A stretch of DNA of 64,000 bases from Hydrogenophaga sp. (GTDB lineage Bacteria; Pseudomonadota; Gammaproteobacteria; Burkholderiales; Burkholderiaceae_C), in NCBI GenBank assembly GCA_018333605.1, contig JAGXSV010000083.1, forward strand, positions 1-64,000. The letters run 5' to 3'. Below the pieces are notes generated by a model that made no database searches, was not told where the DNA came from, and saw nothing but the letters and a program-made list of their open reading frames with translations. Shown here piece by piece: positions 1,282-24,443 of this stretch; the stretch's first letter is position 1; every line of letters starts with the position of its first letter. The translations under genes were made by a program, and so were the position numbers.

Positions 1282-1288
1282 GTCTTCC

Positions 1289-1321
1289 CTTTCTTTCCTC
1301 AAGTTGAGGTGTTGATGAAAG
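1289..1321 (-). promoter_or_regulatory. Leader hairpin M1 (SD-sequestering)
   Basis: On the minus strand the arms CTTTC/GAAAG enclose ATCAAC and an apical CCTCAA/TTGAGG hairpin. The 3' arm runs into the AAGGGAAG ribosome-binding site of the gene at 370-1281. A terminator hairpin (ACCCCC/GGGGGT, 1363-1383) for the upstream gene precedes it. Confidence 0.6.
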
Positions 1322-1486
1322 AGAGGCAGGAAAGCTTTCTGTCGGGTTGATGTCCCGTCAGAAAACCCCCTCCAGGGGGTTTGTGCCTGTCACAGGGGCC
1401 TGGCAAGGCCCCTGTGGAAGTGACTTCATTGATGGAGCGCCGTCACCGGGAGCACATTGCTGTGGCTTCCGGTGATGCGCTTGTTC

Positions 1487-2299
1487 CTACGGGGTAACCC
1501 ATTTTTCGAACTGGATGCACAGGTCAGACTCGTGGAAGCAGGCCGTATGGGTCGGATCGATGTCTTCTTCTGCGAACACGTCGAGCACCAGGCCTTCGTT
1601 GCTGTAGTTCACAGTTGTGAAACCCCAGCCATTGCGGCCGACGTTGACACGGTGTCCTTCTTCTGCCGGTCTGATCTCCACATCGACATCGCTGTCAATC
1701 TGGATCGAGAACGGCTCCTTGACCACGCTGCGTGCTTGCTGCACCAGCCGGTTGATCTCTTCGATCAGTTCCTTCTCGGTGCCGTTCTCGCGCTGGGCGG
1801 TGGCATCCAGAGCGTCCGCGACCTCGTGCTTGCCGGCGCGGCGCAGGACGTTGAGCGCTAGGGTGAGCGCACCGCTGTTGACGCGCACATCGGCCTTGCA
1901 TGCCGGATGTGCTGCCTCACCGGCGGCGCTGTTCATGACGGCATCGAAGTCAGCCTGAATCGAGGCGACAGTCGCGAGGGTGTTGAACGGGTGATCCGTC
2001 CACTCACCGCGGTGGTCCACCTTCTCTCCAGCTTCGGTCACGCGCACCAGACGGAACTCGTCTTCGCGCAGACCGCTCAGGTAGCGCTGCAGGTCCAGCT
2101 CGCACTCCAGGTCGTAGGTCGATCCGGGCCCCTTGCGGGCGTACATCGGCGCGAAGTTCGTCTCGAAGACGAACACACGACCTTCTGCATGAGCGCGGTT
2201 GAAGCCGCTTTGCTCGACCAACCGCGAGAGGACCTCGATGCTGATCTTGGTGATGGCGCTGGAGCGCAGCGCCAGATAGTTCATGGCACGTTCTCCCAT
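1487..2299 (-). CDS. Hypothetical protein, 270 aa
   Basis: No family is recognised. The start at 2299 (MGERAMNYLALRS) has AAAGGA 6 bases upstream; MNYLALRS at 2284 is an alternative. The open frame extends upstream to 2605, but that part overlaps the neighbouring gene and lacks a ribosome site. The middle (LNVLRRAGKHEVADALDATAQ, split here as LNVLRRAG and ADALDAT) looks helical. The C-terminus is acidic (VFAEEDIDPTH). Confidence 0.65.
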   Translation of the reverse strand: MGERAMNYLALRSSAITKISIEVLSRLVEQSGFNRAHAEGRVFVFETNFAPMYARKGPGSTYDLECELDLQRYLSGLREDEFRLVRVTEAGEKVDHRGEWTDHPFNTLATVASIQADFDAVMNSAAGEAAHPACKADVRVNSGALTLALNVLRRAGKHEVADALDATAQRENGTEKELIEEINRLVQQARSVVKEPFSIQIDSDVDVEIRPAEEGHRVNVGRNGWGFTTVNYSNEGLVLDVFAEEDIDPTHTACFHESDLCIQFEKWVTP

Positions 2300-2350
2300 G
2301 ATGGTTCCTTTGAAAGAGTGCAGGCCAATTCGAAGGGCCTGCTGGTTGGT
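2300..2350 (-). promoter_or_regulatory. Divergent copy of the leader module (M2)
   Basis: Minus-strand reading gives AACCAACCA followed by a GCAGGCC/GGCCTGC hairpin and then an AAAGGA ribosome site. The CAAC motif and an apical stem are kept, but the long outer stem is not evident. It is either a diverged or a partly deleted copy of the repeated leader. Confidence 0.4.
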
Positions 2351-2388
2351 TGAATGACAGATGTCAGTGGTTGTGCTGCGCCGCAGAG

Positions 2389-2745
2389 CTACATTAGCGC
2401 TGCGCTTTCGGCCGACACCGGTTGAGGGTCTTCGCACCAAAAGTAGTCCGGGTTCCACCCTTGGTCGGTCATGACCTGGATGTACGACCCGACTTCCCGG
2501 TTGTGGCCCACCAGGTAGCTTTTCCACTCCCCGGCTTCGACCCCGGCCTTGGCCACCATCTCCATTTCCAGGCGGTTGGCTGTGGCATCGAACTGTTGCG
2601 CCCACATCGCGTGTTCACGGATGTCGCTGGCGCTGTGCGCCAGGTTGTTCGAACTTTCCTGGCGATGCCTCTTGGCACTGGATCGCAGTTTGACGATGGT
2701 CGGATGCTTGGCGGCACGCTGTTGGGCTTGCACCATCCAGTTCAT
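2389..2745 (-). CDS. Hypothetical protein, 118 aa
   Basis: The start ATG at 2745 overlaps the stop of the upstream gene as ATGA, so translation is probably coupled. A longer start at 2772 exists but overlaps more and lacks a better ribosome site. The protein is helical, rich in Ala and Gln in its first half, and has a Trp-rich end (GWNPDYFWCEDP). I cannot assign a function. Confidence 0.65.
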   Translation of the reverse strand: MNWMVQAQQRAAKHPTIVKLRSSAKRHRQESSNNLAHSASDIREHAMWAQQFDATANRLEMEMVAKAGVEAGEWKSYLVGHNREVGSYIQVMTDQGWNPDYFWCEDPQPVSAESAALM

Positions 2746-3128
2746 GCGCGGATCTTCCAGGCGTTGCGCCAACCTTGGATCTGGTCGGGCGTTGCAAACC
2801 CTGCAATTGCAGCGTCTACCAGGGCCATGACCTGCTGCATTTCCTCGGCTGACAACGACATACGATAGGGGTCTCCACCATCAAGGCACAAGCCACTCTC
2901 GGTGACCTTGTTCTTGCTGGAGAAGCGCAAAGTGGTGTAGTAGTAGCGCGAGACGAAGTACCCGCGCAGCTCGAACGACTTGGACACCTCGTTGTTGAGG
3001 TAGTAGAACTCGACGGCCGGCTCATCCTTGTCCCAGGTGAGGCAGTCTTCGCGGCCGTACTTTTCCCCCCTTTTGACCAGACGGATTGCGAAGTTCGAGA
3101 TCTGTCCGAGCATTTGTTTCGATTCCAT
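2742..3128 (-). CDS. Hypothetical protein, 128 aa
   Basis: The start MESKQM at 3128 follows the AAAGGCAC ribosome site at the base of leader hairpin M3. Tyr-rich central strands (YFVSRYYYTTLRF) suggest a small beta-rich fold, followed by a helical tail (EEMQQVMALVDAAI). It is first in a two-gene cassette with 2389-2745. No family is recognised. Confidence 0.7.
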   Translation of the reverse strand: MESKQMLGQISNFAIRLVKRGEKYGREDCLTWDKDEPAVEFYYLNNEVSKSFELRGYFVSRYYYTTLRFSSKNKVTESGLCLDGGDPYRMSLSAEEMQQVMALVDAAIAGFATPDQIQGWRNAWKIRA

Positions 3129-3132
3129 GTGT

Positions 3133-3170
3133 GTGCCTTTCCCGCAGAAGCGGTGTTGATGAAGCGGCAC
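3133..3170 (-). promoter_or_regulatory. Leader hairpin M3
   Basis: Outer arms GTGCC/GGCAC differ from the usual CCTTTC/GAAAGG yet still pair. ATCAAC lies inside, and the apical hairpin is CCGC/GCGG. The terminator for the upstream gene (ACCCGCC/GGCGGGT) is at 3207-3226. Confidence 0.65.
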
Positions 3171-3264
3171 AGCCGGTAGGCTTTCTGCTGGGTGGGCCCA
3201 GTAGAAAACCCGCCATTTGGCGGGTTTGAGTCATCTCCATTTCTGGTCGAAGGAAGATGGCCGG

Positions 3265-3987
3265 TTAGCAGTCCAGGGTGGCAACCCTGAACTCCCTGCT
3301 GGGATGCGCGGCCGCCAGGGCATCGCGACGCTCGCAGGCCTGCTCCCGGGTGTCAAAGCGAGCCACCATGTCGGAGTCGGTGGTGACGATGACAGTGTCC
3401 GGGTGTTGCTCATCGCTGGGCTGTGTGAGCCAGCCTTCGCCCGGGGTCCCGCCAACGCAGACGACATAGTCGCGTTTGATCTCACCGATGCAGAGGTAGT
3501 CCACTGTGCCCAGATCCGCCAGAGCAGAGAAGAACGCAAGGTCCTTTTCCTCTTTGGTGGCACCCTTGCGGCACTCGAAGTCCACCTCGATGGCCTCGGC
3601 ACCCGGGAGCTTGAACGTGCCTCGGTGCGCTTCGATTACGCCTCGATCACGCTCATTGAGCATGGCTTCGCTGGCCTCGATCGCTTGCTCCAGGCTTTGG
3701 CTCCCGTTGAGCCAGGACACGAACTCGGTGCCGGCGTCGTGGTGGCAGGGCTCAACGGGGACACCCTCGGCCACCACGTCACGACCTTGTTTGGCGGACA
3801 CGATGCGCAGGGCGCCTTCAGTGCTCCAGTCAGGGTCGAACGAGTAGCTCACCCCCTTATAGGTGTAGTCGGAGAAGACTTGTCTGGCGATGGCCTTGAG
3901 ATTGGACTCGGTCATCACCGTGTCATAAGGCAGATCGACCTCGCAGTAGGCTGCAACGTCGACGGCCAGCGTCATGGTCTTGGTCAT
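3265..3987 (-). CDS. Hypothetical protein, 240 aa
   Basis: The start MTKTMTLAV at 3987 lies behind a GAAAGGAAAG ribosome site in leader M4. It is a soluble protein with no visible signal or membrane segment. The N-terminal half mentions no known motif. The segment VEVDFECRKGATKEEKDLAF is Lys/Glu rich. It stands alone in its cassette, and function is unknown. Confidence 0.7.
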   Translation of the reverse strand: MTKTMTLAVDVAAYCEVDLPYDTVMTESNLKAIARQVFSDYTYKGVSYSFDPDWSTEGALRIVSAKQGRDVVAEGVPVEPCHHDAGTEFVSWLNGSQSLEQAIEASEAMLNERDRGVIEAHRGTFKLPGAEAIEVDFECRKGATKEEKDLAFFSALADLGTVDYLCIGEIKRDYVVCVGGTPGEGWLTQPSDEQHPDTVIVTTDSDMVARFDTREQACERRDALAAAHPSREFRVATLDC

Positions 3988-3993
3988 GATCTT

Positions 3994-4032
3994 TCCTTTC
4001 GGTCCCGCAGGATGCGGTGGTTGGTGAAAGGA
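3994..4032 (-). promoter_or_regulatory. Leader hairpin M4
   Basis: Outer arms TCCTTTC/GAAAGGA, the CCAAC motif, and an apical CCGCA/TGCGG hairpin. The upstream gene's terminator is a strong hairpin with a TCCGC/GCGGA core at 4085-4111. Confidence 0.65.
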
Positions 4033-4121
4033 GCGCCCAGTGGGCTTTCTGCTGCCACTTCTCTGGTGGAAGTGGCATCAGAAAACCCCCCGTCCGCAAA
4101 GCGGAGGGGAGTTGAAAGGCA

Positions 4122-4319
4122 TCAACCCTTGCGGGCTTCTTCCTTGGCGTCTCTTGCCGTTTCGAACCGGTCCACGCGGCCGTTGGGCAGCTTTTTGAGC
4201 AACCATTCACGGCCGTCGAAGACGATCGATGCAAAAGTGACTTTCGTTCCGACCGCCCGACGCTGTGCCAGGTACGCCGGCTTGCCGTTTTCGTGGCCGT
4301 TGAGCTTGAAGGTCACCAT
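4122..4319 (-). CDS. Hypothetical small protein, 65 aa
   Basis: It starts three bases after the stop of the ATPase gene, as the second gene of that cassette. It is short, basic and beta-like, with the pattern GREWLLKKLPNGRVDRF and a charged C-terminal helix (ETARDAKEEARKG). It could be a partner of the upstream ATPase; this is inferred from the coupling only. Confidence 0.65.
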   Translation of the reverse strand: MVTFKLNGHENGKPAYLAQRRAVGTKVTFASIVFDGREWLLKKLPNGRVDRFETARDAKEEARKG

Positions 4320-4322
4320 GGC

Positions 4323-6275
4323 TCAGTCCTTCGCCGCTTTGGCCTGCTGCGCCGTCTCTGGCTCCTGCCATCCTGGCTGAACCACGGTGGTGAACGCCAA
4401 ACGCAGCCTTTCTGCCATCTCCTGCGGACCGTCATTGGTGCCCTGCTCCATGGCTTTCGCCAGCTGGGCCCAGAACTCAGCGTCCATCAGATCGATGACA
4501 TCCGGTTTTGGGTTACGCAGAGATCCATCGCCGCTGCGGTGCTGAACTGTGCGAATGAGCGCCATGTGCTGGGCCTGCTTGAGGTCCAGGTTGGTCAGTT
4601 CCTCGCGCAGCACGGTCTGAGCCATCTGGCACAGACTCACCCCCTTCATGGCCCTGACCTTCTGCGACCAGTCCTTGGCTGCTTCGTCGCGCCATTCCTG
4701 CCGGTACGCATCGCCCTCGTCCCTGAAGCTGCTCATGGCATCCACCGGATGGTCGGGAGCATTGCCATGTCCGATGACGTAGCACTGCATGTCCATCTCG
4801 CCGCAGTGAACGTCCTCGTCGCCTTCCAAGGGTGCTGTAGCGTCGCCTTTTGGCACCAACAGCCAGTCATCCTTGAAGACGGTGGACAGGCGGTAGGCCG
4901 GTTCGGTTGTGCTGGTCACCTCGACAGTGATCTGATCGCACAAGCTGATGGTGCATGCGCCCATGTCTCCCCAGAACTGCGAGTCGCCATGGACGCCGTG
5001 AGGTACCCATGTGAAACGAAGATCATCGACTGAAGGTGCCATGTGACGCAGCCAATGGTCACCAGAAAGGTCCTCGGGCACCGCGATGTTCATTCGCTGC
5101 ATGACCTTGAGCACCAGGGCTGCGTGCGGCGTCCAGTCGGTGCTTTGCGGGCCATCGAACCAGACGAGTACCTTTCCTTCCGAGAAATCGGCCAAGGGAA
5201 TCAGATCTTCCTTGCTGCTGGTTGTCCACACATCCTCAGTTGCCTTGGCCACTTGACTGACGCTCCACAGCACCTTCTGCGGCACCCACGGGATGTCATC
5301 CATGAGCCGCATGAGGTGGTGGGTTTTGCAGTTCTCCCAGTGCTTGCGGACGAAGTCTTCGCCCGTCATGTTGGCCTTGAGCGTAGCCAGGCGATAGCTC
5401 ACCAGGTTGCGCAGCTCGACTTCCACCTTCTGCATTTGCTCAGTGGGGTCGAAAAGGTCAGACCGATCGGGCATCCTTGCGGTGAACTGAGTCGAGTCCA
5501 GATGAACGACGATCGGTCCGTTCTCCCCTCGCCGGCTGCCGATCGGAAGGCCTTGCAGGTACAGCCGATATTGGCGAACCTCGGGAATGCGCGGATCGTC
5601 GGTGGTCACCCCTGGATAGCTGACGAAGCCAACCGGCGTCATCACTCCCTGGAGGTGGTCTTGTGCGTCGGGTCGTGGACATTCCTGTCCATTGATGGAC
5701 ACCGGGATCGGAAAGCCCTTGGCTCGTGCCTGAATCTCGTTGACGATGGCGTAGTCCTGCTGGCCGGAGCGCCCGTAGTAGCCCTTGCCCAGCATGCTCT
5801 CTTTGAGGCCGATGAGCTCGACGCGCGTCCCCTGGGTGATGGCGCCTTCGCAATCGGCACGCACATCCAGGCTTCGCTTGTGGATGACGTCATCGAGGCT
5901 GACCTCAAGGCGCCGGCCGCCGGAGCGGAAGACCACCTTCTCGGCCGCAAAGAACAGGCTGAAGAGGCCCATCCCGAATGGCTTGTCAGTCAGGGTGACC
6001 TGCTCGTCCCATCCGGAGTCGCACAGGGCGATCACCAATTGGAAGTCGCTGATACCACTGCCGTCATCAACGATGCATGCCTTCTTGCCTTCGATGTCGA
6101 TTTCGAAGTCGATTCTGGTGGCACCGGCCCGGCGAGCGTTTTGCATCAGCTCGCCAAGAACTGAGAAGCTGGTGGCGAACAGGTGCTTCATCGACTCGAA
6201 GAACTTGCGTTCATTGATACTGGCACGCACGGCTGTGCTTGTGGGCAGCTCGGTGGTTGCGTTTGTCGTTTCCAT
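4323..6275 (-). CDS. GHKL (Hsp90/MutL-type) ATPase protein, 650 aa
   Basis: The N-terminal 250 residues carry a Bergerat ATP-binding fold. The N box is ELMQNARRAG, the G1 box is DDGSGI (about residue 70), and the G2 box is GMGLFSLFF. The order and spacing resemble Hsp90-like HATPase_c_3 proteins. The remaining 400 residues match no domain I know, so the substrate is open; Hsp90-like chaperone, topoisomerase VIB-like or defence ATPase are all possible. The start at 6275 has a GAAGGAAG site within leader M5, and the longer frame to 6419 would read through the terminator region. It is followed by a coupled 65-aa gene. Confidence 0.75.
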   Translation of the reverse strand: METTNATTELPTSTAVRASINERKFFESMKHLFATSFSVLGELMQNARRAGATRIDFEIDIEGKKACIVDDGSGISDFQLVIALCDSGWDEQVTLTDKPFGMGLFSLFFAAEKVVFRSGGRRLEVSLDDVIHKRSLDVRADCEGAITQGTRVELIGLKESMLGKGYYGRSGQQDYAIVNEIQARAKGFPIPVSINGQECPRPDAQDHLQGVMTPVGFVSYPGVTTDDPRIPEVRQYRLYLQGLPIGSRRGENGPIVVHLDSTQFTARMPDRSDLFDPTEQMQKVEVELRNLVSYRLATLKANMTGEDFVRKHWENCKTHHLMRLMDDIPWVPQKVLWSVSQVAKATEDVWTTSSKEDLIPLADFSEGKVLVWFDGPQSTDWTPHAALVLKVMQRMNIAVPEDLSGDHWLRHMAPSVDDLRFTWVPHGVHGDSQFWGDMGACTISLCDQITVEVTSTTEPAYRLSTVFKDDWLLVPKGDATAPLEGDEDVHCGEMDMQCYVIGHGNAPDHPVDAMSSFRDEGDAYRQEWRDEAAKDWSQKVRAMKGVSLCQMAQTVLREELTNLDLKQAQHMALIRTVQHRSGDGSLRNPKPDVIDLMDAEFWAQLAKAMEQGTNDGPQEMAERLRLAFTTVVQPGWQEPETAQQAKAAKD

Positions 6276-6285
6276 GGTTTTGCTT

Positions 6286-6323
6286 CCTTCTTGAAATGCC
6301 ACATGCGTGGCGGGTTGAGAAGG
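6286..6323 (-). promoter_or_regulatory. Leader hairpin M5
   Basis: Outer arms CCTTCT/AGAAGG with CAAC inside. The apical stem is GCCAC/GTGGC, a clear compensatory change from the usual CCGCA/TGCGG. The upstream terminator AGCCCCC/GGGGGCT is at 6369-6385. Confidence 0.65.
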
Positions 6324-6468
6324 AGCAAGCCGGTAGGCTTTCTGCTGGATGCTTTGCACCCAGAAGAAAGCCCCCATTGGGGGCTGCGGTCCCCGCGTCG
6401 AACGGGGCTTTGGAATCACCGAAGCGGAGACTTTGCTACCAGTTCGGGTCAGTTGCTGTTCGGCCTGG

Positions 6469-6945
6469 TTATGACGACAGGGCGCACGATGCGCCCTTGG
6501 TCATCTGAAGCCGCCTCTTGAGCATGCTGCTGTTTGCGTACCATGGAAACTGTCCGTGACACGCGCCGGCCAGCTGCTCCGCGTCGCGATCACCTGATTC
6601 AGCCACGGTCAGCGCTCCCCACTGGTCCTGATCGAACACAGCGCTGGTCCAGGTCTGGCAGCAGAGGTACATGAAAAGAGCGTTGTAGCGCTCGTTGATA
6701 CCTTCGGGAGCGGTGCGTTCCTTGAGCATCTGTTGTGCTGTCATGTCGGTCACCACGGGATGACTGGTGGCCTTGAGCGTATTCCACGCCAATCTGGCCT
6801 TCTCCCTGTAGCAGACATCGGCCGCAAAGTAGATGGCCACAGGTGCAATTGCATCGAATTCCTGTTCAGGGCTCAATCCAGGAAATGCTTCGAAATCTTC
6901 AACACGCCAGTGGAATGGGTGAACGCAATCGGTCATGTTGTACAT
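6469..6945 (-). CDS. Hypothetical protein, 158 aa
   Basis: The start MYNMTDC at 6945 has AAAGGA four bases upstream; MTDC at 6936 is an alternative. The segment ERYNALFMYLCCQTW is hydrophobic but short of a convincing membrane helix. Cys residues are scattered and form no clear metal site. No family is recognised. Confidence 0.65.
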   Translation of the reverse strand: MYNMTDCVHPFHWRVEDFEAFPGLSPEQEFDAIAPVAIYFAADVCYREKARLAWNTLKATSHPVVTDMTAQQMLKERTAPEGINERYNALFMYLCCQTWTSAVFDQDQWGALTVAESGDRDAEQLAGACHGQFPWYANSSMLKRRLQMTKGASCALSS

Positions 6946-6948
6946 GGG

Positions 6949-6988
6949 GTCCTTTCTGCCTCAAGTCGGAGGCTGCTTAGAGAAGGAC
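6949..6988 (-). promoter_or_regulatory. Leader hairpin M6
   Basis: Outer arms GTCCTT/AAGGAC, apical stem GCCTC/GAGGC. The usual CAAC is reduced to AAGC here. The upstream terminator is at 7026-7042. Confidence 0.55.
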
Positions 6989-7062
6989 GCTCGGTGCGCT
7001 TTCTGCTGGGCTTACCCACCAGAAAGCCCGCCGTAAGGGGGCTTTGGCCTGTTTCGGCACGA

Positions 7063-7664: not shown

Positions 7665-7668
7665 GTTG

Positions 7669-7706
7669 ACCTTTCATTTCCGCAGAGCGCGGTGGTTGAG
7701 AAAGGT
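7669..7706 (-). promoter_or_regulatory. Leader hairpin M7
   Basis: Outer arms ACCTTTC/GAAAGGT: the end pair is A-T where most copies have a different pair. CAAC and an apical CCGC/GCGG stem are present. The upstream terminator AGCCCCC/GGGGGCT is at 7755-7770. Confidence 0.65.
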
Positions 7707-7794
7707 GTAACGAAGTGGCTTTCTCATCTGTTCCATTTCGGAGCGAGATGAGAAAGCCCCCTTGGGGGCTTGGCGTCAAAGCGCTTGAGCACGC

Positions 7795-8946: not shown

Positions 8947-8954
8947 GGTGCTCT

Positions 8955-8989
8955 CCTTTCGGTACCGCAGCTGCGGTGGTTGAGAAAGG
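8955..8989 (-). promoter_or_regulatory. Leader hairpin M8
   Basis: Outer arms CCTTTC/GAAAGG, CAACC motif, apical CCGCA/TGCGG. A long terminator hairpin (AGCCCGCC/GGCGGGCT-like) for the upstream gene is at 9033-9053. Confidence 0.65.
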
Positions 8990-9071
8990 GTCCCAGGTGG
9001 GCTTGCCGATGCAGTCCTGAACCGCATAGGGAAGCCCGCCAAAGCGGCGGGCTGGTGTGGATGGTGAGTTC

Positions 9072-9528: not shown

Positions 9529-9531
9529 CGT

Positions 9532-9571
9532 GACTCCTTTTCCGCAGATGCGGTGTTGAAAAACCGGAGTC
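9532..9571 (-). promoter_or_regulatory. Leader hairpin M9
   Basis: Outer arms GACTCC/GGAGTC continue into TTTT/AAAA. This is the most divergent outer stem and is fully paired. CAACA and an apical CCGCA/TGCGG hairpin follow. The upstream terminator is at 9618-9640. Confidence 0.7.
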
Positions 9572-10920: not shown

Positions 10921-10925
10921 GTCGG

Positions 10926-10964
10926 TCCTTTCTCATTCCCGCAATCGCGGTGGTTGATAAAGGA
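10926..10964 (-). promoter_or_regulatory. Leader hairpin M10
   Basis: Outer arms TCCTTT/AAAGGA, CAACC motif, apical CCGC/GCGG. Here AAAGGA is exactly the ribosome-binding site of the gene at 10621-10920. The upstream terminator GCCCCC/GGGGGC is at 11016-11031. Confidence 0.7.
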
Positions 10965-11287: not shown

Positions 11288-11294
11288 GTCGGTT

Positions 11295-11330
11295 CCCTTC
11301 ATTTCCGCAACTGCGGTGTTGGTCGAAGGG
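11295..11330 (-). promoter_or_regulatory. Leader hairpin M11
   Basis: Outer arms CCCTTC/GAAGGG, CCAAC motif, apical CCGCA/TGCGG. The upstream terminator AGCCCGC/GCGGGCT is at 11373-11390. Confidence 0.65.
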
Positions 11331-12578: not shown

Positions 12579-12584
12579 GATTGC

Positions 12585-12618
12585 TCTCCTTTCCGCAGCT
12601 GCGGTGTTGCGAAGGAGA
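12585..12618 (-). promoter_or_regulatory. Leader hairpin M13
   Basis: Outer arms TCTCCTT/AAGGAGA, CAACA motif, apical CCGCA/TGCGG. The 3' arm contains the ribosome site of the PemK-like gene. No clear terminator hairpin precedes it, only a CTTCCGGC/GCCG-type stem near 12635-12660. Confidence 0.65.
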
Positions 12619-12963: not shown

Positions 12964-12968
12964 GGTTG

Positions 12969-13004
12969 CACTCCTTTCCGCAGTTGCGGTGTTACAAAGG
13001 AGTG
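12969..13004 (-). promoter_or_regulatory. Leader hairpin M14
   Basis: Nine perfect base pairs, CACTCCTTT/AAAGGAGTG, enclose AACA and an apical CCGCA/TGCGG. This is the longest uninterrupted outer stem, and the AAAGGAG ribosome site is wholly inside it. A terminator (GCCGGGGGC/GCCCCCGGC) with a TTGTTT tail for the upstream gene is at 13081-13103. Confidence 0.7.
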
Positions 13005-13724: not shown

Positions 13725-16301
13725 TCAGCCGCACGCCCCGATGCTTCCGCAGTTTGTGCAGAAGTCGCAGCCATCCTTTCGGATCACTGCATGGTCGCCG
13801 CACTCTTTGCACTCTTTGCCCGCAAGACGCTGCGCCGGCCCTTGAGCCCGGGTAGCAGTTTCCTCGCTGACTTTCATGCTGGCGGCCTTCTTCGCGCGGA
13901 CCATGCTTGGCACGGGGTTTCCATCCACGTCCAACACTCCCTTGGAAATGAGCGCCTCCTGGACAGCATAGGCAACCAGTGCAACTTCCGATCCATGGAA
14001 CCGCGGAACGCGGGTGCCATCGTCCTTGATGTAGTGCCCGTATCGCACACGTCCTTTGTCCGAGCGCACGCCTCGGCCGTCCTGCAGTGCCTTGGCCAGA
14101 AGTGGGATCCCCGACCGTGCCAGCAGCGAGAGGCTACGGGCATACGCGGCCACCCATTCCGAGGGAACTCCATCAGGTGATGCCGTGATGAACACCTCGA
14201 CGGGGCGAAGGACTTGCACCTCTTGCCCGGCGATCATGCCCATCACATCCACGAACGAGACGGTCAGGTACATGGTTGCATCGCCAGCAGGCCCCATGTA
14301 GGCCACCTTCTTGACGACTGCCTCCAGATCACCCTTGGGGCGCTTGGTGAGAACGATCGTCGCTGGATCCTGGTTGTCTTCTCGCTTCTCGCTTGCGACC
14401 TCTTCTTTGGGCGCTGTCGGCTTCTCTTGGGCAGGTGCTACCTCCAGGACCGCGCCCCGGATCGGGTTTGGCCGGTAGCAGGCGACGCCTTTGAGACCGA
14501 GCTGGTGGGCCCGCTTGTAGATCGCCTTGAAGTCTGTGAACGGATAGTCCACCGGCACGTTGATGGTCTTGGAAATCGCGCTGTCAACGAATGGCTGCGC
14601 TGCTGCCAGCACAGCCAGGTGCTGGTCCACCGTCAGTGTCTGTGCCGTCACCAGTGAACTGGGCAGCACCTCCTTGACGCTGTAGTTGCCGTCCTCGAAG
14701 GCAAACGTTTCTTGGTAGCTGCAGATTGCATCCAGCAGCGCCTGCTTGAAGTCCTGTGCCTTCTCCTCGTGGCACCAGTTGCTGACATCGCCATGCTCGA
14801 TGAAGACACGCAGGGCGTGATCCATCACCGCGAACGAATCCGTTCCGCCATCGGCCGTGCGCTTGTTTCGCCTGTAGGCCAGACTGAAGATCGGTTCGAT
14901 GCCATTGGAGCAGTTGTCCGCAAAGGCCAGACTGATCGTGCCGGTGGGCGCGATCGACATCAGGTGGCTGTTTCGGATGCCGTGCTGTGCGATCCGCTCG
15001 CGCAGATCGTCAGGTAGGCGCATGGCAAACGCGCTTTGAAGGTACTTGTCCTTGTCGAGGGCCGGGAATGGCCCTCGCTCGATGGCCAGATCCACGGAGG
15101 CGTTGTAGACCGCGTCGCGCAGTCGGTTGGTCACCCTTTCTGCGAATGACGCTCCCATGTCCGATCCATACTCGATGCCCAGCATGGCCATGGTCGAGCC
15201 CAGTCCGGTGTACCCGGTCCCGATGCGGCGCTTGGCCTGGGCCTCCAGCTTCTGCTCTTCCAGGGGCCAGTAGGTGACATCCAGGACATTGTCCAGGAAG
15301 CGCACCAGCACTTTGGCGCATTTCTCGAACGTCACCCAGTCGAACGTGGCTTCGTCCGTGAACGGCCGATGCACGAACTTGGTCAGGATGATCTGACCCA
15401 GGTCGCAGCAGCCGTAGGGCGGCAGCATCTGTTCGGCACACGGGTTGGACGCTGCCAGGTTCTCGCAGTACCAGAGGTTGTTTTCCCGGTTGATGTTGCT
15501 GCCTAGCAGGATGCCCGGCTCAGCGAAGTCGTAGTTCGATTGCATCACCGTGTCCCACAGATCCCTGGCGTCCACCGTGCGGTAGACCCACTGACCATCA
15601 GCGCGCTGGTACACGCCGGCGTTGTTGTCCTTGAACCGCTGGCTGGGCTCGATCTGGTGGATCAGCTCCCAGGTGCGCCCTTCTTCGATGGCCTCGAAGA
15701 ACGCGTCTTCCACGAACAGGCTGACGTTGAAGTTGGTCCAGCGCCCTGGCTTTCGCTTGGCCGTGATGAACTCCATCACATCCGGATGGTCGATGCGCAG
15801 CACGCCCATCTGAGCGCCGCGGCGTGAACCAGCAGACTCGACCGTGGCACAGGATGCGTCGAACACATCCATGTAGCTGCAGGGCCCGCTGGCTTCGCTG
15901 TGGGTTCCCTTGACGAAGGCTCCGCGCGGGCGGATGCGGGAGAAGTCGTAACCGACGCCCCCTCCCCTGCGCATCGTTTCGCTGGCTTGGCGCAGCGCCT
16001 CGTAGATGCCAGGCACGCCGTCATGGTCCAGTCCCTGGATGCAGTCACCGACCGGTTGCACGAAGCAGTTGATCAGCGTGGCCTGGATTGTGGTCCCAGC
16101 CGCGCTCATGATGCGCCCGGCGCCGATCGCTCCATCCTGCATCATCTTCTCGAACTGCTTGGCCCAGTGCTTGCGGCTCTTGCTGTCTTTCTCGGCGCTG
16201 GCGATGCCGGCAGCCACGCGCTCGAAGAGCTGCATGGCCGTGGTTTCGCCTTTCTTGAGGTACTTCTCGGCCAGTACGACCTGGCTGATTTCGTTATGCA
16301 T
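13725..16301 (-). CDS. nrdJ: Vitamin B12-dependent (class II) ribonucleotide reductase
   Basis: It reduces ribonucleotides to deoxyribonucleotides using adenosylcobalamin, with or without oxygen. The 858-aa length fits NrdJ. Visible motifs are TLINCFVQP (redox Cys), MRRGGGVGYDFSRIRP, NPCAEQMLPPYGCCDLG (active-site N-x-C-x-E), PTGTISLAFADNCSNG, and a C-terminal Cys cluster, CKECG...CDFCTNCGSIGACG, typical of NrdJ tails. The start at 16301 has CAGGAG upstream in leader M15; the frame to 16547 is non-coding. Carrying an oxygen-independent reductase would let the element supply dNTPs in its host. It sits alone in its cassette. Confidence 0.95.
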   Translation of the reverse strand: MHNEISQVVLAEKYLKKGETTAMQLFERVAAGIASAEKDSKSRKHWAKQFEKMMQDGAIGAGRIMSAAGTTIQATLINCFVQPVGDCIQGLDHDGVPGIYEALRQASETMRRGGGVGYDFSRIRPRGAFVKGTHSEASGPCSYMDVFDASCATVESAGSRRGAQMGVLRIDHPDVMEFITAKRKPGRWTNFNVSLFVEDAFFEAIEEGRTWELIHQIEPSQRFKDNNAGVYQRADGQWVYRTVDARDLWDTVMQSNYDFAEPGILLGSNINRENNLWYCENLAASNPCAEQMLPPYGCCDLGQIILTKFVHRPFTDEATFDWVTFEKCAKVLVRFLDNVLDVTYWPLEEQKLEAQAKRRIGTGYTGLGSTMAMLGIEYGSDMGASFAERVTNRLRDAVYNASVDLAIERGPFPALDKDKYLQSAFAMRLPDDLRERIAQHGIRNSHLMSIAPTGTISLAFADNCSNGIEPIFSLAYRRNKRTADGGTDSFAVMDHALRVFIEHGDVSNWCHEEKAQDFKQALLDAICSYQETFAFEDGNYSVKEVLPSSLVTAQTLTVDQHLAVLAAAQPFVDSAISKTINVPVDYPFTDFKAIYKRAHQLGLKGVACYRPNPIRGAVLEVAPAQEKPTAPKEEVASEKREDNQDPATIVLTKRPKGDLEAVVKKVAYMGPAGDATMYLTVSFVDVMGMIAGQEVQVLRPVEVFITASPDGVPSEWVAAYARSLSLLARSGIPLLAKALQDGRGVRSDKGRVRYGHYIKDDGTRVPRFHGSEVALVAYAVQEALISKGVLDVDGNPVPSMVRAKKAASMKVSEETATRAQGPAQRLAGKECKECGDHAVIRKDGCDFCTNCGSIGACG

Positions 16302-16309
16302 GTGTCTTA

Positions 16310-16351
16310 CTCCTGATGAAAATGCGGCATCTGCCGCTGTTGATGAAGGAG
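16310..16351 (-). promoter_or_regulatory. Leader hairpin M15 (nrdJ)
   Basis: Outer arms CTCCT/AGGAG, ATCAACA motif, apical GCGGCA/TGCCGC. AGGAG is the nrdJ ribosome site. The upstream terminator (ACCCA/TGGGT, long loop) is at 16362-16393. nrdJ is the one enzyme of known function directly under this type of leader besides the methyltransferase. Confidence 0.65.
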
Positions 16352-16986: not shown

Positions 16987-16999
16987 GAAAGCCTTCCTT

Positions 17000-17039
17000 C
17001 ATTCCCGCATCTGCGGTAGTTGCTGAATGGGCGCTTCGG
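17000..17039 (-). promoter_or_regulatory. Leader hairpin M16
   Basis: Outer arms CATTC/GAATG, a further change from the common stem; GCAACT motif and apical CCGCA/TGCGG. The upstream terminator GCCCGC/GCGGGC is at 17079-17096. Confidence 0.6.
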
Positions 17040-17114
17040 TGAGCTTTCTACTGGCCCCGGGACAGGAGACGGAAGAAAGCCCGCGCGAGGCGGGCTGGAG
17101 GTGAGTGCGGTAGT

Positions 17115-17999: not shown

Positions 18000-18000
18000 T

Positions 18001-18039
18001 GGTTTTTCCATTTCCGCAGATGCGGCAGTTGCAAAAACC
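18001..18039 (-). promoter_or_regulatory. Leader hairpin M17
   Basis: Seven perfect pairs, GGTTTTT/AAAAACC, replace the usual CCTTTC/GAAAGG; both arms changed together. GCAACTG and an apical CCGCA/TGCGG are kept. The Shine-Dalgarno is sacrificed here, so pairing rather than sequence is conserved. The upstream terminator is at 18082-18097. Confidence 0.7.
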
Positions 18040-18110
18040 GAAGGCGGAAGAGGCTTTCTGCTGGGCTGTCCCAATAGAAAGCCCCCTGTGGAGGGGGTAG
18101 AGAGTGAGCG

Positions 18111-19007
18111 TCACTCGCTGATGACGAACGCGTGCGTACCGTCAGGCAACGTTGTGGGCTTGAGTTGAACCTGGTTCTCTGGCCGGACGATGTATTGATC
18201 GCGACGCTTGAAGAGGCTGAAAGCTAGGTGATCGCTGTTGAAATGAAAGTGCGCGCAGGGCAGGTGCTCTTTGCCCTCAATCAGGTTGTTGATCTCGAAC
18301 GCAGCTCTCATCTGACCGATGTCGTCGGCCTCATTGGGTATCACGTCCACGTAGAACGAGTTGTTCAGCACCCGCTGGTCGGTAACTTCCAAGCTGAAGT
18401 TTGGCAAGTTGGCGCCCTTTTCGCTTGATCCGTCTGCCACCGACCAATGCTGGACCGGAACTGACGTGATGATCGGCGCCGGCAGTATGGCGATTGCCAG
18501 CTCAACGAACCGCTGGAGAGACTGCTCGTTGAATAGCCAGTGGGTCTGTCCCGGGGCAGAGGCGTCAGCTTCTTCGAAGGTGCTGTGGCGTCCTAGCGGC
18601 ACCAGTCGATCATCAGAGAAGGCATACCAGGAAGGGGTTGATGTTCTGGGTGGCGTGCGGCCAGCCCCAAGGATCTCGTCCTCTGGGTACGCGTTCCTCG
18701 CCTGTTCCACTGCGTGTGATTCGCTTTCGGCGAAGCACTCGAACGTGTGCACAAAGGGCCCTTCCTCTCCCTCCGTCGGCTCACTCAGTTGGACCGCGTA
18801 CTTTTCCAGCGATTCCACGAGCTGGAGACCGGATGGCGTCTGCTTCATCACCTTGCGCGAATGGCCTGCCGGGTCATCGAATTCGAGGTAGAAGCCATTG
18901 GAATCCGACCCCTCTTTCGGTTTTTGATGAGCCGCTTTGCCGAACGCGAGTCCTTCCATGAAGATCATGCGATCCTGGGCAAACTCGAAGTAGATGATGG
19001 TTGTCAT
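18111..19007 (-). CDS. Hypothetical protein, 298 aa
   Basis: The start MTTIIYFEFAQ at 19007 has AGAAAGGACACC upstream. It is soluble and acidic, and a long helical middle segment includes QRFVELAIAILPAPI. No family is recognised. It is a single-gene cassette behind leader M18. Confidence 0.65.
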   Translation of the reverse strand: MTTIIYFEFAQDRMIFMEGLAFGKAAHQKPKEGSDSNGFYLEFDDPAGHSRKVMKQTPSGLQLVESLEKYAVQLSEPTEGEEGPFVHTFECFAESESHAVEQARNAYPEDEILGAGRTPPRTSTPSWYAFSDDRLVPLGRHSTFEEADASAPGQTHWLFNEQSLQRFVELAIAILPAPIITSVPVQHWSVADGSSEKGANLPNFSLEVTDQRVLNNSFYVDVIPNEADDIGQMRAAFEINNLIEGKEHLPCAHFHFNSDHLAFSLFKRRDQYIVRPENQVQLKPTTLPDGTHAFVISE

Positions 19008-19012
19008 GGTGT

Positions 19013-19044
19013 CCTTTCTGCCCAATCAGGGCTGTTGTGAAAGG
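19013..19044 (-). promoter_or_regulatory. Leader hairpin M18
   Basis: Outer arms CCTTTC/GAAAGG, ACAACA motif, apical GCCC/GGGC instead of CCGC/GCGG. The upstream terminator ACCCGCC/GGCGGGT is at 19088-19103. Confidence 0.65.
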
Positions 19045-19126
19045 CGTTGCCGGTGGGCTTTCTGATGCCTTGGTCTGGCATAAGAAAACCCGCCGAGGCG
19101 GGTTCAGAGTCCGTATGTCGATGCCG

Positions 19127-19606
19127 TCACAGATGAGCTGGCACCACGACGGTCTCACCGAAGCGCCAGGCGGCGTGGCATCGGGCTGCAGCCTCGAAGG
19201 CTGTCACCCCGATAAAGCACTGGCGTCTGGATGTCGCTGCGGTCTTGGGCAGGTCCTTGAAGGTGAAATCCTTCCAGGATGCGCCGGGCTCATCGCCCAG
19301 ATCGTCGGATCGAATCGCCATCCAGATCTTGTTTCGGCGCTCCAGTCGTCGCAGGGCAATACCCTCGCGGTCGATGATGGGCCACATCCAGGCCTCTTCG
19401 CGCGTGTAGGGGTTGGATCTGGCGCCTGAGAGGATCTCCTCTTTGACCCAGTCCTTGATGTGGTCTCCTTCGTCTTCAGAACGATTGAGCTCTGCCAAAG
19501 TCACAAGCCAGTCGAGCTGGCTTGGGGTCGCATCAACGACTTTCACGGGACTCATGTCGCATCCACATCGGGCAATGGTCATGCTGTTGGACTGTGATCT
19601 CTCCAT
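19127..19606 (-). CDS. DUF2591-family protein, 159 aa
   Basis: The pattern VKVVDATPSQLDWLV near the N-terminus, WPIIDREGI in the middle and AAARCHAAWRFGETVVVPA at the end is that of the DUF2591 family found in phages and plasmids. The start at 19606 lies one base after the upstream stop. It is paralogous to the gene at 20523-20918. The biochemical role of the family is not known to me. Confidence 0.75.
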   Translation of the reverse strand: MERSQSNSMTIARCGCDMSPVKVVDATPSQLDWLVTLAELNRSEDEGDHIKDWVKEEILSGARSNPYTREEAWMWPIIDREGIALRRLERRNKIWMAIRSDDLGDEPGASWKDFTFKDLPKTAATSRRQCFIGVTAFEAAARCHAAWRFGETVVVPAHL

Positions 19607-19607
19607 G

Positions 19608-19820
19608 TCAGTTCTCCACGCCAGTGTCGGTGTGGACCAGGCCACTCTCGCTCAGTTCGTAGGTATGGTTGTCGCCCTCACCGTCGCATTCAATGAGGAG
19701 CCAATAGCCGCGTGTGTCGACGCTTTGCGTATAGGCTGCGGAACGGTCAGCGTTGAGGGAGTGGCCGTGTCTGAAGCCATCGAGCATCGCTTCGGTGTCG
19801 CAATAGATGAGGGTTTTCAC
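19608..19820 (-). CDS. Hypothetical small protein, 70 aa
   Basis: First gene of the cassette behind leader M19 and coupled to the DUF2591 gene. It is acidic and beta-rich, starting MKTLIYCDTEAML, with GYWLLIECDGEGDNHTYEL later. No family is recognised. Confidence 0.6.
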   Translation of the reverse strand: MKTLIYCDTEAMLDGFRHGHSLNADRSAAYTQSVDTRGYWLLIECDGEGDNHTYELSESGLVHTDTGVEN

Positions 19821-19825
19821 GATGT

Positions 19826-19858
19826 CCTTTCTTCCCCATCAGGGGTGGTTGAGAAAGG
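19826..19858 (-). promoter_or_regulatory. Leader hairpin M19
   Basis: Seven pairs CCTTTCT/AGAAAGG, CAACCA motif, apical CCCC/GGGG. The upstream terminator ACCCGC/GCGGGT is at 19899-19914. Confidence 0.7.
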
Positions 19859-19953
19859 CGCAGCCGGTAGGCTTTCTGCTGAGCGGTCCCAGTAGAAAAC
19901 CCGCCGAAGCGGGTTGAATTGGCCAGGGGTCTAAGCCAGAAGGCGGTAACGTG

Positions 19954-20526
19954 TCAGCCCTGCCGTTGTTCGACGAGCTGGATGATTCTGGTCACCGAGT
20001 GCTCAAGAAGGTACTGACGCTTCCAGTCCTCCAAGCCCAGCGTTGTGTGGCCACCCTGGACCGCGCCTTTCCAGTGAAGGTCCGCTACCTTGGTCATGGC
20101 CAATGACAGTGGCATTGCGAAGGGTACGACGTGGGGTACCACACACAACGGTTCGCCCGTGACCTGTTCGATGGCAAGCGCATCGCGTTTGCTGAAGGGA
20201 ACGAACTGACCACGCACCTGGGCACGAAATGGCGTCTTTGTGATCTCTGGGATATCCTGCTCAATCACCATGCCCCCCTTGCGGAAGGCCTGCACTAGGT
20301 GCTGGATGTCACCAGCCGGAAGATCAGCGATGACGCCCTCCTCGGATAGTGCCGTGGGTTGCTCGTCATCGCGCACGCCGGCGGCTTCGAGAAATCGGTC
20401 AGCTGCGCGAAGCGCCTCCCAGTCTTCCTCTCGCTGGTCTTCGTCATCGGCGATCTCGACCCAGAGGGCCAGACGATCACGAAGTAGCTTGATGAGGCTG
20501 ATGGTCTGTTGCATTGGCATGCTCAT
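19954..20526 (-). CDS. Hypothetical protein, 190 aa
   Basis: The start MSMPMQQTISL at 20526 overlaps the upstream DUF2591 stop as ATGA. The frame is open to 20778 but the extension has no start signal. The N-terminal third is helical and acidic (VEIADDEDQREEDWEAL). The C-terminus is also helical. Phage-type genes of this shape often sit beside DUF2591 genes; no function is known. Confidence 0.6.
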   Translation of the reverse strand: MSMPMQQTISLIKLLRDRLALWVEIADDEDQREEDWEALRAADRFLEAAGVRDDEQPTALSEEGVIADLPAGDIQHLVQAFRKGGMVIEQDIPEITKTPFRAQVRGQFVPFSKRDALAIEQVTGEPLCVVPHVVPFAMPLSLAMTKVADLHWKGAVQGGHTTLGLEDWKRQYLLEHSVTRIIQLVEQRQG

Positions 20527-20918
20527 GACAGCGCCTCCGGCACCTCGACTATTTCGCCAAGTTTGCTGACGATGCAGCACCGGGCCGCTGCGATGCTGAG
20601 GTTTGGACCGATTCCAACGTAGCGGATCAGCCCGCCATGGTTTTTGGGGTGTGTTGCTCGGTATCCGAGGAAGCCGGTGCGCACACCACATCCGCGGGTA
20701 CTCCACATGCTTTCGTAGTCCATCTTCTCCCGATCCATGATCGGCCCCATCTGGTTGGGGAGACGGGTCGGCTTCCATGGAGCTTTGACTCCAAGGCCAG
20801 GCACTTGAGCCTTGATCGAAGGGTCGACGCCGTAGAGGGAAAGCTCATAGCCTTCCACCACACCCAGCATCCAGTCGAGTTGAGCTTCTGTCGCTTCAGC
20901 TACTTTGACGTGTTTCAC
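20523..20918 (-). CDS. DUF2591-family protein, 131 aa
   Basis: The signature VKVAEATEAQLDWML, MGPIMDREKM and IAAARCCIVSKLGEIVEVP is closer to the family consensus than its paralogue at 19127-19606. It is the first gene of a two-gene cassette behind leader M20. Family members are widespread in prophages; their job is unknown. Confidence 0.8.
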   Translation of the reverse strand: MKHVKVAEATEAQLDWMLGVVEGYELSLYGVDPSIKAQVPGLGVKAPWKPTRLPNQMGPIMDREKMDYESMWSTRGCGVRTGFLGYRATHPKNHGGLIRYVGIGPNLSIAAARCCIVSKLGEIVEVPEALS

Positions 20919-20929
20919 TGTGTCTTCCT

Positions 20930-20960
20930 TACCGCAGTAGCGGTTGTTGAGAAAAGCACA
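20930..20960 (-). promoter_or_regulatory. Leader hairpin M20
   Basis: A GTG..TTC / GAA..CAC outer stem with internal mismatches, CAACA motif, apical CCGC/GCGG. This is the weakest outer stem of the set. The upstream terminator ACCCC/GGGGT is at 20996-21011. Confidence 0.55.
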
Positions 20961-21664: not shown

Positions 21665-21670
21665 GGGGTT

Positions 21671-21705
21671 TCCTTCCTTCCCCAGTCAAGGGGTGTTTCG
21701 AAGGA
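21671..21705 (-). promoter_or_regulatory. Leader hairpin M21
   Basis: Outer arms TCCTTC/GAAGGA, AAACA in place of CAACA, apical CCCC/GGGG. The upstream terminator AACCCCC/GGGGGTT is at 21744-21761. Confidence 0.6.
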
Positions 21706-22127: not shown

Positions 22128-22134
22128 GTTCGAT

Positions 22135-22181
22135 CCTACCTTGTAGATTGCCGCAAAGACGGCAGTTGATGAACTGGTAGG
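22135..22181 (-). promoter_or_regulatory. Leader hairpin M22
   Basis: Outer arms CCTACC/GGTAGG, different from all other copies but perfectly paired. CAACT motif, apical GCCG/CGGC. The 3' arm GGTAGGA doubles as the ribosome site. The upstream terminator is at 22217-22232. Confidence 0.7.
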
Positions 22182-23251: not shown

Positions 23252-23256
23252 GACTT

Positions 23257-23289
23257 CGTCCTTTCCGCAGTTGCGGTGTTGAAAAGACG
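23257..23289 (-). promoter_or_regulatory. Leader hairpin M23
   Basis: Outer arms CGTCTTTTC/GAAAGGACG with one internal G-T pair, CAACA motif, apical CCGCA/TGCGG. The upstream terminator GCCCC/GGGGC is at 23328-23341. Confidence 0.65.
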
Positions 23290-23361
23290 TGTGTCAGAGG
23301 CTTTCCGTTGGTTCATGCCAATGAAAAGCCCCCGAAGGGGCATGGTGTCTCGTGTAGCTGG

Positions 23362-23943
23362 TCAATCGGCGAGTTCGAAGAGATCGCGTACGACAGGTGC
23401 TGACTGGGGTGTGGCCTTGCGTGTGAGCGTCGCCTCAGGCCAATTGGCTCGATCAAGCCGAAAGTGACGGCCATCCGTGACTCTTGCAATCACGATTTGA
23501 TCGCCCAGATCGAACCGTTCAACGTACCGATACGTCTCCTGGCCGATTTGGATCACGTCGCCGCTCTGGAGCGTTTTCCAGGTGTGTTGATCCTGCTCCA
23601 GCTTCTTATGGTGGGCGATAACGGCCTCCCTCCATTGCCGATCTGTCTCGCTCATCCCCTGAACAGGGATCAGGTCAAGCAGGGTCATCGGAATGTCGAC
23701 AGCATCCAGGTGGGACTCGCTTTTGTATCCCCAGCCGTGCGTCGGCCGACCAGATTGCATTCGTACCAGGCAGGGCTCTCGCACCCCATTGTCCCGGCGC
23801 TCGAGGACGAACCACAAATGGTTGCCCACCGCCTTGTGGGCAACATATCCCCATTGGTTGTCCTGGCGCATGAATCCGTTGACCTGCTGTTGGATGATTT
23901 CCATCCGGCCGACGTGCTTGTCAATTGCGTAGCTCCAACCCAT
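23362..23943 (-). CDS. Hypothetical protein, 193 aa
   Basis: It starts MGWSYAIDKHVG, an opening common among phage and plasmid proteins of unknown function, and has WGYVAHKAVGNHLWFVLER in the first third. The last 60 residues (LQSGDVIQIGQETYRYVERF) look like a small beta barrel. It lies three bases after the upstream gene. Confidence 0.6.
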   Translation of the reverse strand: MGWSYAIDKHVGRMEIIQQQVNGFMRQDNQWGYVAHKAVGNHLWFVLERRDNGVREPCLVRMQSGRPTHGWGYKSESHLDAVDIPMTLLDLIPVQGMSETDRQWREAVIAHHKKLEQDQHTWKTLQSGDVIQIGQETYRYVERFDLGDQIVIARVTDGRHFRLDRANWPEATLTRKATPQSAPVVRDLFELAD

Positions 23944-23946
23944 GAC

Positions 23947-24324
23947 TTAGGCCTCCGCGACTGCGTAGCACATGCGCGCACCGCCAACCATCTGCAGCTC
24001 AAGGGCTGTTCCGTCAGCGCTCAGTTGCAGGTCCTTGATCTGTCCTTCGGACTGTTGATCCTCCCAGCAAAACGCGTATCTCGTCGAGCCGGCAGAGAGC
24101 GTCCCCAGACGTTCGCGAGTGAACCTGGGCTTGAGGATGAAGCGTTCCTGGCCTTCTGCTCCAGCAAAGTGGATGGCTCTCTCGGACTCTCGTGCATCGG
24201 GGTGCGCTGCCTTGGTTTGGGCAACGACTTGGGGCCAATCCTCAGCGGCCAGGCCCCCGATCATCGTTGCTTTGACCTTGCTGCCCTGCAGGGTGGCCAA
24301 CAAGCTCTTCTTGGTGATTTTCAT
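23947..24324 (-). CDS. Hypothetical protein, 125 aa
   Basis: First gene of a two-gene cassette behind leader M24, with a good GAAAGGACC site. The protein begins MKITKKSLLATLQG and is mixed alpha/beta. It looks cytoplasmic. No family is recognised. Confidence 0.6.
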   Translation of the reverse strand: MKITKKSLLATLQGSKVKATMIGGLAAEDWPQVVAQTKAAHPDARESERAIHFAGAEGQERFILKPRFTRERLGTLSAGSTRYAFCWEDQQSEGQIKDLQLSADGTALELQMVGGARMCYAVAEA

Positions 24325-24329
24325 ATGGT

Positions 24330-24364
24330 CCTTTCATCCCCGAATTCGGGTGGTTGTTGAAAGG
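24330..24364 (-). promoter_or_regulatory. Leader hairpin M24 (rightmost copy)
   Basis: Outer arms CCTTTCA/TGAAAGG, CAACA motif, apical CCCG/CGGG. The upstream terminator, which would end the radC-like gene, is a large CACATCGG/CCCGATGTG hairpin at 24371-24417. No further copy is seen to the right in the window. Confidence 0.65.
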
Positions 24365-24443
24365 GGGCCACATCGGCTTTCCCATGGGCTTTCCCATGGG
24401 GAAACCGCCCGATGTGAATCGGGACGGTATCAATTCGGCGTGC

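Follow-up and report, generated by a model that had tools for sequence, protein, structure and literature searches.

Concealment of the Shine-Dalgarno (SD) sequence is a known regulatory principle. Ribosomal-protein operators, riboswitches and RNA thermometers share a build in which the 3' arm of a stem contains the SD and translation proceeds once the stem opens, and they usually control one or a few related genes. The element considered here is a short RNA leader of similar layout, repeated along the minus strand of the first 64,000 bases (the window, i.e., the whole stretch of DNA analysed) of contig JAGXSV010000083.1 from Hydrogenophaga sp. (assembly GCA_018333605.1; genome incomplete, 62% complete). 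In contrast to the classes above, it precedes up to 34 mostly unrelated genes on a single contig, supporting the claim of a preliminary description, made from the letters alone, that one RNA design is placed before genes of unrelated sequence.

Among the closest layout analogues found are the start-associated repeats SAS and ESAS of cluster K mycobacteriophages (PMC3203893), the distant analogy already offered in that description. The likeness lies in a repeated element at many gene starts, located at the ribosome-binding site (RBS). In the part of the source available, about half of the SAS copies have an upstream inverted repeat, the element is kept on the same gene families across genomes, and no function is assigned (PMC3203893). 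However, SAS is a conserved sequence with pairing to 16S rRNA, and the available part describes no SD-hiding stem; the ESAS repeat likewise has a sequence consensus (PMC3203893), whereas the arms of the plasmid leader vary while their pairing is kept. The variation in the outer arms is compensated, but GAAAGG is common among them, and the contrast with SAS is one of description only.

Two further systems come from plasmids. As far as the accessible text goes, EGeRS1 elements of pLS20-family conjugative plasmids are repeated, strongly folded leaders directly before the RBS of several operons, lacking a strong sigma-A promoter and acting by a mechanism left unexplained; they are 420–750 bp long, 62–95% identical, found in Gram-positive hosts and present in five copies on pLS20 (PMC8708921). 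The Hydrogenophaga leader, at about 40 nt plus an upstream hairpin and with 49% mean column identity, falls outside a definition based on several hundred bp and >60% identity. Frpo single-strand promoters are also folded elements before plasmid genes on one strand, but carry −35 and −10 boxes according to the portion of the source at hand (PMC11541004), whereas promoter-like sites, those of folded strands aside, are not enriched in the array described here.

The preliminary description knew of no RNA class with this build, and none was recovered: window positions 1000–26000 gave no Rfam 15 match up to E 5, a gathering-threshold search of the whole window gave tRNAs only, and loci L034, L155, L156 and L030 gave HEARO only. 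No paper on this leader was found among open-licence PubMed Central papers. What appears to be new is its scale and its compound build. Large plasmids must hold many genes harmlessly, and these may have to be activated once the plasmid has been transferred; one small RNA leader before many unrelated genes would, if this reading is true, be a post-transcriptional, regulon-like route built into the messages themselves. The leader could also offer a short, portable SD lock and a handle on the gene blocks without assigned function of betaproteobacterial plasmids.

Leader architecture and evidence of selection on pairing

From 5' to 3', the leader consists of the 5' arm of an outer stem, a loop containing AAC, a GC-rich inner hairpin, a variable 3' loop, an SD-holding 3' arm and the start codon. 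All 22 leaders claimed for the window were located on its minus strand, and they measure 37–54 nt. They are listed below with two of the genes that they precede.

24325..24364, minus strand: SD-sequestering leader, gene start 24324
23252..23289, minus strand: leader, gene start 23251
22128..22181, minus strand: leader, gene start 22127; compensated outer stem CCTACC:GGTAGG
21665..21705, minus strand: leader, gene start 21664; GAAACA in place of CAAC
20919..20955, minus strand: leader, GTG start 20918
19821..19858, minus strand: leader, GTG start 19820
19008..19044, minus strand: leader, gene start 19007
18000..18038, minus strand: leader, gene start 17999; outer stem GTTTTT:AAAAAC
16987..17029, minus strand: leader, gene start 16986
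16302..16351, minus strand: leader of the ribonucleotide reductase gene, start 16301
13725..16301, minus strand: leader-bearing gene, ribonucleotide reductase large subunit
12964..13004, minus strand: leader, GTG start 12963; 9-bp outer stem CACTCCTTT:AAAGGAGTG
12579..12618, minus strand: leader, gene start 12578
11288..11330, minus strand: leader, gene start 11287
10921..10964, minus strand: leader, gene start 10920
9529..9571, minus strand: leader, gene start 9528
8947..8989, minus strand: leader, gene start 8946; top score in the first two covariance models
7665..7706, minus strand: leader, gene start 7664
6946..6988, minus strand: leader, gene start 6945; divergent, no AAC
6276..6324, minus strand: leader of the HATPase-domain protein gene, start 6275
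4323..6275, minus strand: leader-bearing gene, ATP-binding (HATPase-domain) protein; domain match below the curated cut-off
3988..4032, minus strand: leader, gene start 3987
3129..3171, minus strand: leader, gene start 3128
1282..1324, minus strand: leader, gene start 1281

The outer-stem 3' arm holds the SD, as had been described, and the stem covaries, own arms pairing better than swapped arms. In placing the SD within a conserved stem, on its 3' side, the leader has the structure of an SD-sequestering translational control element. Other details required adjustment. CAAC on the 5' side is exact in 19 of the 22 copies and AAC is present in 21, the exception being the leader of 6945; both counts were made with a descriptor that prefers AAC and are hence biased, the unbiased count being that of 46 in 69 folds given below. 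The outer stem ends 2–13 nt before the start codon, rather than the 3–10 bases first given, and the start is ATG in 19 copies but GTG in three (20918, 19820 and 12963). Some gene boundaries have no leader, and many second genes of a cassette are without it. The array continues outside the window, at about 105–117 kb and 139–145 kb of the same contig. Leader-like hairpins with an SD and without AAC, seen at window positions 13580–13613 and about 25205–25240 (both minus strand), may be remnants.

The contig itself (C83, 155,653 bp) is, to judge by its gene content, most likely a conjugative plasmid: genes for type IV secretion occur on it together with a TraD/TraG-type coupling protein, DnaB, ParM-like and ParB-like genes, ribonucleotide reductase and a match to a MobH-type relaxase that falls below the curated cut-off. 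Two contigs served for comparison, C28 of Hydrogenophaga aromaticivorans D2P1 and C2 of Hydrogenophaga sp. NFH-34; reciprocal best protein pairs among C83, C28 and C2 number 74, 71 and 54. Gene starts were taken from a crude caller, and some are wrong.

Several approaches set the leaders apart from chance. A covariance model was built on six copies and recovered seven further window copies at E ≤ 0.0065, all on the leader strand and before genes; its weaker matches (E 0.1–10) comprised 26 others, mixed in kind and including reverse-strand matches to the same palindromic sites. A second model, on 13 copies, was run on three whole genomes (G000, G065 and G085) and gave 54 matches at E ≤ 5, 53 of them on one contig and one strand per genome (C83, C2 and C28). 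A structure descriptor applied to gene starts matched 31 of 199, 20 of 226 and 14 of 200 genes on the three contigs, as against 7 of 796, 10 of 904 and 7 of 800 dinucleotide shuffles; eight of these 65 matches were judged spurious by eye and left out of later leader sets. The leader set itself comprised 75 starts, of which three lacked the descriptor, leaving 72 rows, or 71 leaders once two rows representing one leader were merged.

The association with strand and with AAC is seen when each requirement is relaxed in turn. The fold without the AAC requirement was found at 69 of 332 leader-strand genes versus 14 of 293 genes on the other strand, and AAC stood in the 5' loop of 46 of those 69 leader-strand folds (23.9 expected from shuffled loops) versus one of the 14. 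When AAC, an inner hairpin and a gene start were the sole criteria, 46 of 49 candidates lay on the leader strand; their outer arms had a mean pairing of 16.1 with their own partner versus 13.1 when swapped, and none of 2000 permutations reached the observed sum. In an alignment of 56 matches, 93.4% of cells pair, changes occur on both sides in seven of nine pairs, and the covariation score is 0.319 versus 0.154 for shuffled and at most 0.138 for slid partners. Because this alignment was fitted to the model, it is biased in the model's favour, and two of its members (C83 77677 and C2 114533) have no start codon by the rule used. The leaders are not chance occurrences, and the covariation and the arm swaps speak for selection on their pairing.

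Upstream hairpins, orthologous genes and distribution

The unit first described was correct for the leader, but missed structures just upstream. A strong hairpin (HP2) ends no more than 20 nt upstream of 57 of 71 leaders; the counts for shuffled sequences and for other genes are 17 of 355 and 27 of 212. A terminator-like hairpin precedes 27 of 72 leaders, where the corresponding counts are 8 of 360 and 8 of 212. The 5' arm of HP2 is often the T-rich tail of the terminator-like hairpin, so that the two abut or overlap (e.g., window 6335–6373). Two such blocks are given as examples.

6335..6385, minus strand: upstream block before the leader of 6275; terminator-like hairpin 6369–6385, then HP2 at about 6335–6373
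3178..3224, minus strand: upstream block before the leader of 3128; terminator-like hairpin and HP2 at about 3178–3211

Two ideas on HP2 were dropped. One mismatched pair occurs in 46 of 57 leader-associated hairpins, and likewise in 20 of 27 hairpins from controls and in 10 of 17 from shuffled sequence; a conserved mismatch was abandoned, as the hairpin finder allows one mismatch and controls show similar rates. The idea that HP2 pairs through its 3' arm with the anti-SD arm was set aside by inspection, since the arms do not change together.

The leader tends to stay with orthologous genes, as judged from reciprocal best pairs on the leader strand. Between C83 and C28, eight pairs have it on both sides, six and two on one side and 32 on neither (p 2.7e-4); the corresponding figures are four, three and four, and 28 for C28 and C2 (p 0.022), and four, seven and four, and 36 for C83 and C2 (p 0.055). 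Counting pairs on both strands gave smaller p values (2.5e-5, 0.017 and 0.006), and the leader-strand figures are preferred. Four of 46 three-way orthologue sets have the leader in all three contigs; one is a DUF932 gene (family taken from the C28 orthologue), whose homologues on two Polaromonas plasmids also carry it. A 1657-amino acid (aa) methylase-helicase, at C83 106899–111872 (L030 2899–7872, minus strand), also has the leader in all three Hydrogenophaga-group contigs, and its homologues occur in 13 of 299 family genomes examined, own genome included.

Eight related large replicons were found to carry the leader: three of the Hydrogenophaga group, two of Giesbergeria, one from a Burkholderiaceae metagenome-assembled genome (MAG) and two of Polaromonas. 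Detected copies number 16–34 on C83, C28 and C2. The further carriers, namely Giesbergeria anulus, a Giesbergeria MAG, the Burkholderiaceae MAG, pPNAP01 of Polaromonas naphthalenivorans CJ2 and a Polaromonas sp. P1-6 plasmid, were reached through an sbcD-based search and plasmid records, and in these too the leader stands before genes. With a third model there were 80 matches at E ≤ 0.5, spread over eight genomes or records, and in each of these a single replicon and strand held them, with one exception (79 of 80); for Polaromonas, single plasmids were searched. Four control genomes of the same genus gave none. A start codon was present at 10 of 11 inspected sites on the Giesbergeria and MAG contigs. 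The loop reads UUAAC, not UCAAC, in the Polaromonas plasmids and several Giesbergeria copies.

Wider searches brought to light nothing convincing outside this group. With the first model, matches among 118 relatives were confined to the own genome, G065 and G085; 399 genomes of the order gave the own genome only, plus one match in G346 (E 0.005) that lies within an apparent coding region and was rejected as chance, and 369 genomes of the class gave none besides the own genome. These multi-genome searches used stricter filters, which can lose weak copies. Fourteen genomes with homologues of the HATPase protein or the 1657-aa methylase-helicase had no match at E ≤ 1. The HATPase protein has matches in 94 plasmid records, four of which were searched and gave no leader match below E 0.6, and viral contigs held no relative of the HATPase protein or of sbcD. 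The second model run on 78 sbcD loci gave 10 matches at E ≤ 10, the best (0.14) in Giesbergeria; directly upstream of sbcD, tested at 64 of the 78 loci, a similar fold was seen in five (two Giesbergeria cases convincing, L080 possible and two apparently spurious). An sbcD match is present in 53 plasmid records, and because only the top two (Polaromonas) were searched, the list of eight replicons is a lower bound. Within what was searched, the leader is restricted to one plasmid group. A different repeated folded leader precedes several genes on Azospira pAZI09 (L004 6372–13844) and Sulfuricystis pSTJ1 (L005 7074–11980); in this leader the inner hairpin is enclosed by arms such as GGGCACC...GGTGCCC and the SD downstream is free, and it may be a separate class of the same idea.

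Proposed mechanism and alternatives

With confidence only slightly better than even, the leader can be read as an element that is closed by default, holds down the translation of a set of plasmid genes and is opened by a factor; we infer the repression, the co-transcription, the terminator activity, and the factor with its signal. The leader would then be the 3' part of a compound RNA element, in which HP2 precedes the two-stem SD hairpin, separated from it by a short linker, and is itself often preceded by a terminator-like hairpin. Transcription of the gene array probably yields long RNAs with terminator-like boundaries, because promoter-like sites are not enriched (one found between positions 1000 and 20900 versus 4.5 expected). 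The SD hairpin would keep the RBS paired and allow little translation, and the default state is probably closed because stems of such strength (mean −12.3 kcal/mol, sd 3.1, n=72) usually reduce translation; the upstream hairpins may add a transcriptional lock. The predicted unpaired probability of the SD is 0.17 in the 71 leader genes versus 0.39 in 183 other same-strand genes (p 5e-9), a contrast that is descriptive and not a test because leader genes were chosen by their fold.

The unpaired AAC loop and inner hairpin form a likely recognition site for a trans factor or the ribosome itself, because the unpaired AAC is kept while the helices change freely. Hfq favours such A-rich triplets, and the recognizer is possibly a plasmid-borne protein, possibly the host Hfq or possibly the ribosome. 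Such recognition might open many messages at once, perhaps at one stage in the life of the plasmid, for instance when it becomes established after transfer. A further-reaching form of this reading, which seems rather doubtful, is a plasmid post-transcriptional regulon, in which 16–34 mostly unrelated genes per plasmid would be silenced by a two-stage RNA lock, first the terminator-like hairpin with HP2 and then the SD hairpin, and one factor of plasmid or host, reading the AAC-hairpin, would open them all; this would happen at one defined stage, for instance on arrival in a new host, and on two of the three contigs the tRNA set of the plasmid itself may come into play with it.

A number of observations weigh against a default-closed element opened by a factor. 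By the same measure, the SD is also buried in 38% of other same-strand genes, and some leaders, at −4.5 kcal/mol, may be too weak to repress. The terminator-like hairpin is present, by the rule used, at a minority of leaders only, and a general terminator scan of positions 1000–20900 had no clear excess (23 found, 18.3 expected, sd 3.9). Retention on orthologues is partial, that between C83 and C2 being non-significant on leader-strand pairs alone, and 4 of 40 second-model matches at E ≤ 3 in further genomes were strays, lying off the main replicon or strand or, in G752, standing alone. The search for a trans factor was negative: no clear RNA-binding domain emerged from the Pfam and NCBIfam scans run on shared proteins, a 122-aa protein whose gene has the leader in all three contigs gave a predicted model (mean pLDDT 84.3, from an alignment of three sequences) with no fold match at E ≤ 0.001, and a 144-aa candidate had weak family matches only. 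Joint opening of the messages by one factor or condition, as first suggested, stays hypothetical; a common thermometer is disfavoured by the spread of leader stability.

The main rival explanation is a constant brake with no switch, whereby the leaders set low translation, insulate cassettes and make a large plasmid cheap, and nothing opens them all together. The conserved structure, the widely varying stabilities and the failure to find a trans factor all agree with such a brake, as does the location of the leaders on plasmid-type replicons, where a low burden is favoured. It seems unlikely on the whole. A pure brake needs neither an above-chance unpaired AAC nor a second hairpin upstream. 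A switch operated by temperature or a metabolite, in which an RNA thermometer or riboswitch melts the SD stem, is highly improbable. An SD in a stem with an internal loop is a usual build of both, but stabilities lie anywhere between −4.5 and −19.5 kcal/mol, which speaks against one shared melting temperature, the unpaired bases that are kept number only about four, few for an aptamer, and the Rfam search of positions 1000–26000 named neither.

Two other explanations place the function of the hairpins outside translation. In the first, the hairpins would work on the single DNA strand that enters the cell in conjugation, whether as promoters of the Frpo type or as other single-strand signals, with the SD pairing a by-product. 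The leader genes point in one direction, homologues of a DNA methylase and of a methylase-helicase are among them and RadC is close by, and leading regions carry such gene types on the transferred strand, to judge from the part of the source available (PMC11541004). Yet promoter-like sites show no enrichment, in a scan that covered promoters other than those of folded strands, and the outer stem tracks the SD and keeps its short distance to the start codon in the 22 window copies. This explanation seems improbable. Processive antitermination, with the AAC-hairpin as a nut-like site (boxA and boxB) that lets RNA polymerase pass terminators and a secondary overlap with the SD, would account for the terminator-like hairpins, and the order of a C/U-rich stretch, AACA and a hairpin resembles boxA-boxB. 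Gram-positive conjugation operons with internal terminators and antitermination exist, as described in the accessible part of one account (PMC8955417). The C/U-rich arm is, however, replaced together with its partner (CCTACC:GGTAGG, GACTCC:GGAGTC and CGTTTTC:GAAAACG), something that a boxA recognized by its sequence would not tolerate; inspection against the boxA consensus found a contiguous boxA in none of the 22 window copies, so that the leader does not qualify as a nut site, and antitermination is, if anything, a shade less credible than action in the single strand. An integron attC site was rejected, as the AAC lies in an unpaired loop at gene starts and is not paired with GTT at the 3' end of a cassette, and a sigma-54 site was dropped by inspection.

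Neighbouring features

Other features were recorded on the same replicons. The window has 24 tRNA genes, covering most amino acids, at 56158–59375 (plus strand), with an RtcB RNA ligase gene directly after (59362–60687, plus strand); a similar array of 20 tRNAs is present on the Hydrogenophaga sp. NFH-34 contig (L051) and none on that of H. aromaticivorans. On pPNAP01, two HEARO RNAs adjoin IscB genes (L155 34558–34802 and 37715–37957). A 140-aa HD-domain protein encoded at window positions 25935–26357 (minus strand) may, as a guess, be a small (p)ppGpp hydrolase-like enzyme.

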